A DNA stretch of 64,000 nt from Candidatus Eremiobacterota bacterium (GTDB taxonomy: Bacteria; Vulcanimicrobiota; Vulcanimicrobiia; Vulcanimicrobiales; Vulcanimicrobiaceae): assembly GCA_019235885.1 (NCBI GenBank), contig JAFAKB010000064.1, forward strand, positions 1-64,000. Reading direction: 5' to 3'. Each line of letters opens with the position of its first letter. Position 1 is the first letter of the stretch. The notes below the pieces were generated by a model that was not told the origin of the DNA, did not search any database, and was given only the letters and a program-made list of their open reading frames with translations. A program made the position numbers and the translations under genes. Positions 9,142 through 10,860 of the stretch are shown here, one piece after another.

Positions 9142-9567
9142 CTACGGGGTCGTCTCGATCGCCTGGCGCAGGCGCGAGTACTGGTTCTGCAAGAGCTGAC
9201 CCATCGTTTGCGCGTAGGCCGAGTTGAGCGAGAGCTTCGCCATCTCTTGGTCGACGTCGACGTTGGAGCCGTCGATGCGCATCTGCTGGTCGGTGTCGAC
9301 CGTCGTCGTGACCGAGAACGGCTCCGGCTCCTGCGCGCCGCCGACCGGGATGTGCCGCTCGTCGGTTGTGACCATCGCGAGCTGCTCGGGATCCGGGTCG
9401 CTCGCCTCGGCCGCCGCCAGCGCTTCTTTGAAGGAGACGTCGGAACGCCGGAAGTTCGGCGTGTTGACGTTGGCGATGTTGTTCGCGATGACCGAATGCG
9501 CGGACCCCGCGCCGTCCAACGCGTTCTTGAGCATGCCGACGGTCTGGCCGAACGAGATATCGCCCAT
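9142..9567 (-). CDS. flgB: Proximal rod protein FlgB
   Basis: 141 residues from ATG 9567 (MGDISFGQTVGMLKNALDGA); a GTG two codons upstream is an alternative. NNIANVNTPNFRRSDVSFKE and the C-terminal SNVDVDQEMAKLSLNSAYAQ, NQYSRLRQAI are FlgB hallmarks. First gene of flgB-flgC-fliE, about 105 bases downstream of the promoter at 9680-9708, with a leader containing two hairpins. Confidence 0.94.
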   Translation of the reverse strand: MGDISFGQTVGMLKNALDGAGSAHSVIANNIANVNTPNFRRSDVSFKEALAAAEASDPDPEQLAMVTTDERHIPVGGAQEPEPFSVTTTVDTDQQMRIDGSNVDVDQEMAKLSLNSAYAQTMGQLLQNQYSRLRQAIETTP

Positions 9568-9599
9568 CACCACACCAATCGGCCGCCGAGCCCTCGGGC

Positions 9600-9673
9600 C
9601 TTAGCCGCACCCGCAACGGAAGCGGCCCCGGACGAAGCGTCCGAGGCCTGCTGTCCGCTGACTAAGCGGAGGT
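9600..9673 (-). promoter_or_regulatory. flgB leader: anti-tRNA segment and two hairpins
   Basis: The predicted transcript starts near 9673 and its first 14 bases (9672-9659 on this strand) are complementary to bases 9768-9755 of the tRNA-like gene just upstream, with one G-U pair. The same segment can fold into a hairpin CCGC-TTAGTCA-GCGG, followed by GGCC-T-CGGACG-CTT-CGTCCG-GGGCC, a second stem that could be an attenuator. The equivalent leader exists in the copy at 10542-10594. Confidence 0.55.
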
Positions 9674-9679
9674 GACCTG

Positions 9680-9708
9680 ATTGTATCCGGGTGACTAGGC
9701 CGGGTCAA
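9680..9708 (-). promoter_or_regulatory. Sigma70-type promoter for flgB-flgC-fliE
   Basis: Minus strand TTGACC (9708-9703), 17-base spacer, TACAAT (9685-9680). It lies about 20 bases beyond the 3' end of the tRNA-like gene and points to flgB. A sister promoter with the same spacing is at 10600-10628. Confidence 0.8.
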
Positions 9709-9727
9709 GAACCGCCGCTTATGGGCA

Positions 9728-9801
9728 CGCGCCCGGAGGGACTCGAACCCTCATCCTCCACTTAGTCAGAATGGTGCTTTATCCGCTTAAGCTGCGGGCG
9801 C
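9728..9801 (-). tRNA. tRNA-Val(GAC)-like gene, copy 1, probably degenerate
   Basis: A cloverleaf can be drawn: acceptor GCGCCCG/CGGGCGC, D stem GCTT/AAGC, anticodon stem CCATT/AGTGG with loop CTGACTA (anticodon GAC), T arm GAGGG-TTCGAGT-CCCTC. Several near-invariant positions are off: position 8 is C instead of U, position 37 is a pyrimidine (T), the discriminator is G where tRNA-Val has A, and no CCA is encoded, whereas the tRNA-Cys and tRNA-Gly genes later in the window both encode CCA. It may be a tRNA-derived element rather than a working tRNA. Confidence 0.6.
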
Positions 9802-9970
9802 TCGCCGGAGACGTAGGCCGGCATCAACGTGAATCACTCGTTGCGGCGCCGAGACTAGACCCAATTTGTCCGAAAGGTCCGTCGATCTCGTAGCCCAGGA
9901 ATTCGAGCCGTTCAACCCCGAACGCTCGCCTTACCGGGTGGTGCGAACTGCTTCTCATCGAGGAGGTACG

Positions 9971-10513
9971 ATGCCCGTTCCCCGCTTGACCCTGGGTACC
10001 GCGGCGGCTCTCGCGCTCGGTGCGACGCTGGCCGCCGCCTCGGCCGCATCGGAGACGCCCGCGCAGAAGATCGCGCGCGCTCTTTCGGCCGGACCGGCGT
10101 CGATCACCGCCCATGCGACGGTCGCCGACATGGACGCGAAAGGCAACATGACCGTGCTCCGCAAGGGCACGAACGAATGGACCTGCGTGCCGGGTCACGT
10201 CGGTGTCGTCGGCGACGACCCGTTCTGTGCCGACGCGGCGTCGATGCAATGGGGTGACGACTGGTTCCACCACAAGCCGAAGCCGACGAACACCAAGCCC
10301 GGGATCATGTACATGTTCGCCGGCGGAACCGACTGGAGCGCCAGCGATCCCTTCGCAACGAAAGGCACGCCGATCAAAGAGCCGCCGCACTGGATGATCA
10401 TGTATCCGGTCGACAAGTCGTCCGGGCTGCCGACGACCCCGCGCAATACTGGAACGTGGATCATGTACGCGGGCACGCCCTATGCGCATCTCATGATCAA
10501 CGGCAAGCAGTAA
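9971..10513 (+). CDS. Secreted protein of unknown function
   Basis: 180 residues; ATG 9971 follows AGGAGG by 4 bases, a strong site that rules out the upstream in-frame ATG at 9866. Signal peptide (LTLGTAAALALGATLAAASA). The mature part has no domain I recognise; it is rich in Trp and Met with MQWGDDWFHHKPKP, IMYMFAGGTDWSASDPF and a GTWIMYAGTPYAHLMIN end, suggesting a compact beta fold. It stands alone on the plus strand between the two tRNA-like cassettes, and a strong hairpin follows its stop. Confidence 0.8.
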   Translation: MPVPRLTLGTAAALALGATLAAASAASETPAQKIARALSAGPASITAHATVADMDAKGNMTVLRKGTNEWTCVPGHVGVVGDDPFCADAASMQWGDDWFHHKPKPTNTKPGIMYMFAGGTDWSASDPFATKGTPIKEPPHWMIMYPVDKSSGLPTTPRNTGTWIMYAGTPYAHLMINGKQ

Positions 10514-10541
10514 TCTCGACGCAAACTCGTCGCACAAACGG

Positions 10542-10571
10542 AGCAGCCCCGGATACAATTCCGGGGCTGCT
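10542..10571. terminator. Strong hairpin, likely bidirectional terminator
   Basis: Perfect 11-bp stem AGCAGCCCCGG / CCGGGGCTGCT with loop ATACAATT, followed by TTT on the plus strand and CCGTTT on the minus strand. It lies 28 bases after the secreted-protein gene and would also end the roughly 50-base transcript expected from the minus-strand promoter at 10600-10628. Confidence 0.7.
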
Positions 10572-10573
10572 TT

Positions 10574-10594
10574 CCGCTGACGAAGCGGGAGATG
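10574..10594 (-). ncRNA. Anti-tRNA segment at the 5' end of a predicted short transcript
   Basis: Predicted RNA from the promoter at 10600-10628 begins near 10593-10594. Its first 17 bases are complementary, without gap and with two G-U pairs, to bases 10689-10673 of the tRNA-like gene copy 2, from the anticodon through the variable loop. It contains a stem CCGC-TTCGTCA-GCGG. With the terminator at 10542-10571 this would be a short independent RNA of about 50-60 bases with no ORF. Confidence 0.5.
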
Positions 10595-10599
10595 GCTCG

Positions 10600-10628
10600 A
10601 TTCTATCCGGATGACGAATCCCGGTCAA
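10600..10628 (-). promoter_or_regulatory. Sigma70-type promoter, duplicate of the flgB promoter
   Basis: Minus strand TTGACC (10628-10623), 17 bases, TAGAAT (10605-10600). No minus-strand gene follows; only the anti-tRNA segment and a terminator do, which is why a short RNA is proposed. Confidence 0.75.
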
Positions 10629-10648
10629 GCCCCGCCCGTACGTCGGCA

Positions 10649-10722
10649 CGCGCCCGGAGGGATTCGAACCCTCATCCCCCACTTCGTCAAAATGGTGCTC
10701 TGTCCAATTGAGCTACGGACGC
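10649..10722 (-). tRNA. tRNA-Val(GAC), copy 2
   Basis: Acceptor GCGTCCG/CGGGCGC (one G-U), U8 A9, D arm GCTC-AATTGGACA-GAGC, anticodon arm CCATT-TTGACGA-AGTGG (anticodon GAC, G37), T arm GAGGG-TTCGAAT-CCCTC. This copy has better invariant bases than copy 1 and strongly resembles tRNA-Val(GAC), but the discriminator is again G and no CCA is encoded. It is 74 bases with the discriminator. Confidence 0.75.
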
Positions 10723-10860
10723 GTCCCGATCCCATAGCGTAGCCTTCAAGCGAACACATGCGAAGTGGTCGTCCGACAACGCTACTTTGGCCGAAAAGGA
10801 CGTCTCGCGTGGAAGGCCACGGCTTCGACAAAACGCAAGCGCTCGTTAAGAGATACGAGG

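Follow-up and report, generated by a model that had tools for sequence, protein, structure and literature searches.

The window, a stretch of 64,000 nucleotides from a Candidatus Eremiobacterota genome, contains two members of a family of paired RNA genes, in which a gene for an RNA with a tRNA fold is followed on the same strand by a region complementary to its own anticodon arm. Judging from the sequences, we consider it very probable that such a cassette is an antisense pair kept under selection. Whether the pair is also an RNA-only toxin-antitoxin module, its toxin a mis-decoding tRNA that we infer to be toxic, we regard as an evenly balanced matter.

Anatomy of the two window cassettes

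The duplicated tRNA-Val-like cassette of the original prediction is real: both tRNA genes were called on the minus strand by ARAGORN, as tRNA-Val(GAC), with Rfam in agreement that they are tRNAs (Table 1). The anticodon loop of copy 1 reads CTGACTA, with U37, and its CCA is not encoded; that of copy 2 reads TTGACGA, with G37. The TTGACC-17-TAnAAT promoters proposed for the downstream regions were recovered as the only two sigma-70-like sites in a scan of 1.26 kb (9540-10800), against 0.2 expected by chance, and in both copies the predicted RNA start lies 7 bases past the promoter. From there, each downstream region is complementary to the tRNA of its own cassette, starting in the anticodon loop and reaching the variable loop; with G-U counted, the uninterrupted helix has 15 pairs for copy 1 and 18 for copy 2 (14 and 17 had been claimed). 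The positions at which the two copies differ on both sides and still pair were found as described. The word reported to vary in step within the promoter spacer (TAGTCA or TCGTCA) is likewise present, as part of the loop of a small hairpin here called P2. A terminator had been assigned to copy 2 only; instead, both copies close with a strong hairpin. These closing hairpins have no T-run, which is why the terminator scan lists none for either copy. Between the two cassettes lies an open reading frame on the opposite strand (9971-10513, +), whose 180-aa product begins like a signal peptide and matches nothing in Pfam.

Table 1. Features of the two cassettes, in window coordinates.
Feature	Position	Strand	Basis and details
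tRNA-like gene, copy 1	9728..9801	-	ARAGORN and Rfam; arginine-type body (A20, G73), anticodon GAC
tRNA segment complementary to own antisense RNA, copy 1	9755..9769	-	CTGACTAAGTGGAGG
Hairpin P2, copy 1	9687..9703	-	Loop word TAGTCA (9697-9692), complementary to anticodon loop
Promoter of antisense RNA 1	9680..9708	-	TTGACC-17-TACAAT; promoter scan
Antisense RNA 1, predicted	9620..9673	-	Predicted start A9673; anti-anticodon-arm 9672-9658; closing hairpin 9648-9624
tRNA-like gene, copy 2	10649..10722	-	ARAGORN and Rfam, called at 10648-10723; arginine-type body, anticodon GAC
tRNA segment complementary to own antisense RNA, copy 2	10673..10690	-	TTGACGAAGTGGGGGATG
Hairpin P2, copy 2	10607..10624	-	Loop word TTCGTCA (10618-10612), complementary to anticodon loop
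Promoter of antisense RNA 2	10600..10628	-	TTGACC-17-TAGAAT; promoter scan
Antisense RNA 2, predicted	10542..10593	-	Predicted start A10593; pairing region 10594-10577; closing hairpin 10571-10542

Homologous promoters occur in all type 1 cassettes, and T-run terminators in a related locus, L212, and in other relatives. The order in L212 is tRNA, strong terminator, TTGAAA-17-TATGAT promoter, antisense RNA and a second terminator belonging to the latter; because a terminator and a promoter thus lie between them, the tRNA and the antisense RNA are best read as separate transcripts. What had been called a leader accordingly more plausibly represents an antisense small RNA that is free of the tRNA, a predicted transcript that would have, as such RNAs do, its own promoter and terminator (in the window copies, a closing hairpin lacking a T-run).

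Own-partner pairing across the cassette family

The host genome carries four cassettes, the two in the window and one each on contigs C67 and C38. The latter two consist of a tRNA-Val(GAC)-like gene, TTGACG and TACCAT elements separated by 17-18 bp, an antisense stretch that fits the adjacent tRNA, and a closing hairpin. Related genomes, most of them incomplete MAGs, were searched at the DNA level, with two covariance models built here (R1 and R2) and with sequence patterns, and cassettes were accepted after their complementarity had been checked by eye; R1 and R2 matches with E above about 1e-5 were mostly ordinary tRNA clusters and were counted only if complementarity was seen. Cassettes were found in 20 related genomes (G007, G013, G015, G027, G032, G034, G062, G065, G071, G079, G103, G113, G116, G120, G125, G127, G128, G129, G132, and G135), all of the same family as that of the window. 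About seven more come from Chloroflexota: a pattern scan of named genomes matched two MAGs of this phylum, and model searches at the class and phylum levels added G401, G415, G374, and G535, with G330 less clear. Retention of the tRNA with loss of the complementarity was the outcome named beforehand as decisive against the pairing; the opposite was seen, in that related genomes keeping the tRNA also keep the complementarity.

Pairing is specific to the partner encoded alongside. Between the anticodon arms and downstream regions of 16 cassettes, the longest run of pairs averaged 15.25 for own and 9.21 for foreign combinations, with duplex energies of −32.8 and −22.7 kcal/mol, respectively, and the own-pairing sum was reached in 0 of 200,000 permutations, a test that takes loci as independent, which orthologues (e.g., G027 and G132) are not. 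The same reservation applies to the set of 24 cassettes, where own runs averaged 14.7 and foreign runs 9.0 (0 of 100,000 permutations). Shuffled downstream sequences of the 16-cassette set gave a mean run of 7.6, never exceeding 8.4. Each of the four co-resident pairs of the host genome energetically prefers its own partner, with fairly good cross-pairing remaining between W1 and the C38 copy.

The partner also tracks changes of the anticodon, which besides GAC can be GGC (G015, G374), of CGC type (G127, G125, G128, G129), CAC (G401, G415, G535), or GAT, the last on a different tRNA body (G120, G116, G079). In an alignment of ten sequences, 9 of the 17 pairs of the tRNA:antisense helix showed changes on both sides. 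Covariation scored over the counted structure as a whole, T stem of the tRNA and P1 stem included, was 0.312, compared with 0.181 for shuffled alignments (reached in 0 of 500) and 0.055–0.112 with the partner slid, again with loci taken as independent. In many genomes the antisense RNA goes on to complement the D arm, imperfectly, such that most of the 5′ half of the tRNA is mirrored; read from the sequences, this extension is present in G062, G065, G027, G034, G127, and Chloroflexota and absent from the window copies. Selected base pairing between the tRNA-like RNA and an RNA beginning at the predicted start, as originally proposed, is thus borne out by covariation across many genomes, and the extended complementarity to one partner, preserved by compensatory change, is that of an antisense small RNA. 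We infer that both RNAs are expressed and pair in the cell. In ten type 1 cassettes, the −35 and start regions (CTTGA/TCAAG) form a stem, P1, with 100% pairing but no change on both sides. P1 is therefore not used in our argument; it may be a trailer structure or reflect a promoter constraint only.

A second complementary element is P2, a short hairpin about 27–31 nt 3′ of the tRNA end. Over positions 33–38, its loop pairs at 5.5 of 6 positions with the own anticodon loop and at 4.2 with foreign ones (19 cassettes; 0 of 200,000 permutations, and 157 of 200,000 for GAC-type loops only), values obtained with words aligned by hand, which somewhat favors pairing. P2 overlaps the promoter spacer in most cassettes and is missing from L212. 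In G032, G071, and G034 it is separate from the promoter, inside a long stem, which argues that it is more than a by-product of the promoter; a perfect TTGACT-17-TATACT promoter follows P2 in G032 and G071, such a site standing apart from P2 at loci L060 and L079.

Local gene conversion between inverted segments was the main alternative raised in the original prediction. Extended to inverted duplication at tRNA att sites, a DNA-level effect with no pairing of RNAs would draw on the role of tRNA genes as recombination targets and on the simple inverted tRNA fragments found behind some ordinary tRNAs (L034, L213), but we consider it very improbable. P2 matches its target in the loop only, on a stem that is unrelated and self-complementary; promoter, start site, and closing hairpin are preserved; and no integrase was seen among the immediate neighbors. 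Moreover, orthologues match despite differences at several paired positions: the anticodon loop is CCGACTA in G027 and CTGACGA in G135, which belong to one genus and have the same neighbors at this locus, and their antisense RNAs differ to fit.

tRNA body, orphan antisense RNAs, and a proposed mechanism

tRNA gene callers score the cassette genes as normal tRNA-Val or tRNA-Ala. An ordinary decoding tRNA-Val(GAC) was rejected as their identity, as the cassettes do not hold to the U33, purine 37, and A73 of such a tRNA. Among 248 ordinary tRNAs in the loci examined, 244 have U33 and 246 a purine at position 37; among 19 cassettes, five have C33 and 11 a pyrimidine at 37. At the discriminator position (N73) most cassettes carry G, though A, C, and U also occur, and C-A mismatches are frequent at the 31-39 pair. 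Elsewhere the host genome has a normal tRNA-Val(GAC) gene, which carries A73 and encodes its CCA. The cassette body is arginine-like: in 20 of 24 cassettes it comes nearest, among the ordinary tRNAs of the host, to a tRNA-Arg, and A20 occurs in 24 of 25 cassettes, in 65 of 67 ordinary tRNA-Arg, and in almost no other isotype. Bacterial ArgRS recognizes A20 as its main determinant, together with A/G73 and C35, and valine identity requires A73 and A35 (PMC9976931). Most cassettes have G or A at 73, mostly G, and lack C35; since this second arginine determinant is missing, charging could be poor. Pyrimidine 37 and C33 would weaken decoding in several copies.

The two partners do not occur symmetrically. 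Patterns blind to the antisense RNA found nine tRNA-like genes in 149 genomes of the window's phylum and four in 294 Chloroflexota genomes, and an antisense partner accompanied 13 of 13, although both patterns were derived from cassettes and are biased, so that lone tRNA-like genes with other loops would escape them. Conversely, at least six antisense RNAs were found without a tRNA. One (G346) occupies a syntenic locus with promoter and closing hairpin and no tRNA, while a second antisense RNA follows the first in G374, G401, G127, and G125; in G126, the antisense RNA is intact and the tRNA interrupted inside. The host genome itself has an orphan (L069, G000:C67:23326-23393), consisting of the 3′ part of a cassette (GGTACCAT...CCGCCGTAGTCAGCGG) with its hairpin and no tRNA, about 7.5 kb from the intact C67 cassette. 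The target 12-mer of the G346 and G374 orphans occurs in those assemblies only within the orphan itself, and a matching tRNA is present in G415. On this biased test, the candidate toxin is never without its antitoxin and the antitoxin is sometimes an orphan, as would be expected of an RNA-only (type VIII) module. A toxin-antitoxin pair would leave just this asymmetry, which is suggestive rather than proof given patterns learned from cassettes and incomplete assemblies.

These observations bear on two other readings of the pair. The tRNA-like RNA could be a non-toxic supplementary tRNA with a regulatory role, in stress decoding or as an amino-acid donor outside translation, tuned by its antisense RNA. 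Such a role fits the separate promoters and the preservation of the tRNA fold by compensatory acceptor and T-stem changes, and has a precedent in tRNA-Other of Bacillus cereus, a tRNA-like regulatory RNA (PMC3399842). It also fits the vertical inheritance of some loci beside the same genes (Dus, in several genera, and an aminotransferase), which a selfish toxin-antitoxin module would not need. Nevertheless, we regard a supplementary tRNA as possible but unlikely: the anticodon and positions 33, 37, and 73 vary freely among cassettes, orphan antisense RNAs persist without any tRNA, and presence is patchy, with cassettes in only two of 11 genomes of the genus.

Orphan small RNAs would equally be expected if the small RNA regulated mRNAs and the tRNA-like RNA were its sponge or decoy, and tRNA-derived sponges such as 3′ETS-leuZ of Escherichia coli are known. 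We find this improbable, as the pairing word differs between orthologues, so that mRNA targets of whatever kind would need to change in parallel, and as the complementarity over most of the 5′ half of the tRNA in many genomes exceeds what a seed needs.

Of all these readings we favor the toxin-antitoxin module, which would work as follows. The RNA made from the first gene would fold as a tRNA and combine an arginine-type body with an anticodon for another amino acid. The second gene, whose promoter lies directly behind the first on that strand, would yield a small RNA complementary to the anticodon arm of this tRNA (in many genomes also to its D arm). If not neutralized, the tRNA would take up an amino acid, probably arginine, and insert it or shift the frame at GUC, GCC, GCG, GUG, or AUC codons. 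In eight open reading frames of the window, GCG, GUC, AUC, and GCC, which cassette anticodons match, are all among the seven most used codons (78, 52, 48, and 48 per 1000, respectively). The antisense RNA, as antitoxin, would make a loop-loop contact with the anticodon loop and then zip along the arm; the extended pairing would hide the anticodon, and A20 where the D arm is covered, leaving the tRNA blocked or destroyed. The anti-anticodon loop of P2 would silence the nascent or unprocessed tRNA in cis. The class that this would define, a rogue-tRNA toxin that joins an arginine-type body to an anticodon for Val, Ala, or Ile, acting by missense or frameshift and held by an antitoxin that is its antisense copy, with the anticodon loop evolving alongside its partner and orphan antitoxins left behind, is one we put forward tentatively and think rather less than evenly probable. 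Were the tRNA a toxin, the genetic code would be in use as a weapon or addiction device, with misreading of common codons checked by a mirror-image RNA. Even without toxicity, the cassettes represent a new RNA gene pair in two phyla, and their covariation makes the pairing directly testable.

Related systems and genomic context

Neither Rfam nor the searchable open-access literature yielded another case of a tRNA gene that has an antisense RNA dedicated to it. The Rfam scan of the window returned four tRNA matches only, with no T-box and no other riboswitch, in keeping with the earlier view that the cassettes differ from a T-box. They resemble one in that a hairpin loop pairs with an anticodon, but lack the specifier stem I architecture, the pairing with the tRNA 3′ end, and the downstream aminoacyl-tRNA gene, and their element matches only the tRNA encoded next to it. 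A T-box was also rejected on the basis of the downstream genes, which are unrelated or convergent and are not amino-acid or aminoacyl-tRNA genes.

With type VIII toxin-antitoxin systems (CreT-CreA, SdsR-RyeA), the cassettes would share that both partners are small RNAs, and with CreTA that the toxin acts through a tRNA. CreT sequesters a rare tRNA, and the crRNA-like CreA acts via the CRISPR complex at the creT promoter (PMC12737573); in the cassettes, by contrast, the candidate toxin is the tRNA itself and the candidate antitoxin its antisense copy, and no Cas protein would be needed. Type I toxin-antitoxin and plasmid antisense systems (hok/sok, RNAI/RNAII) offer another parallel, in which a small antisense RNA is delimited by a promoter and a terminator of its own, pairing is initiated by hairpin loops, and specificity comes through covariation. 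Unlike in those systems, the target is a tRNA-fold RNA rather than an mRNA or replication primer, and the gene for the antisense RNA follows that of its target along one strand instead of lying opposite it. The cassettes would thus fall beside type VIII in kind while being type I-like in their pairing. The tRNA-Other of B. cereus is an extra tRNA-like gene that does not serve translation and is contained in a larger RNA; its published abstract mentions no dedicated antisense partner, which the cassettes do have (PMC3399842).

The neighbors of the cassettes vary from lineage to lineage. The gene flgB is located about 100 bp downstream of copy 1, whose proposed leader had been suggested to sense the tRNA-like RNA and control transcription of flgB-flgC-fliE. 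We give this hardly any credence: copy 2, the C67 and C38 copies, and the homologues examined have no flagellar neighbors, and copy 1 has, before flgB, the same closing hairpin as the other copies. The link between cassette and flgB is accidental. Origins on phages and plasmids were rejected as well, as a phage search gave a single match, to the tRNA part only, a pattern scan of viral contigs gave none, and a Chloroflexota cassette had no match in plasmids. In two Chloroflexota loci (L117, L119), the cassette is near genes that, named from sequence alone, are for glycine cleavage, a metallo-beta-lactamase fold, and valyl-tRNA synthetase, which is probably chance synteny.

Several other tRNA loci were encountered. 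The C38 cassette is located just upstream of an apparent tRNA-Leu gene with a group I intron (L004, G000:C38, ~1740-1800). Elsewhere in the host genome, about 20 tightly packed tRNA genes of many isotypes, some low-scoring, form a cluster looking like a phage or mobile tRNA array (L116, G000:C37:2400-5800). Finally, the ordinary tRNA-Gln(TTG) and tRNA-Glu(CTC) genes at L034 (G000:C73:36435-36506) and L213 (G757:C108), respectively, are followed 0–20 nt downstream by an inverted copy of their own anticodon/D-arm region and then by a direct partial copy of the 3′ half, an arrangement that differs from the cassettes and may either show how antisense pieces originate or mark an integration site.
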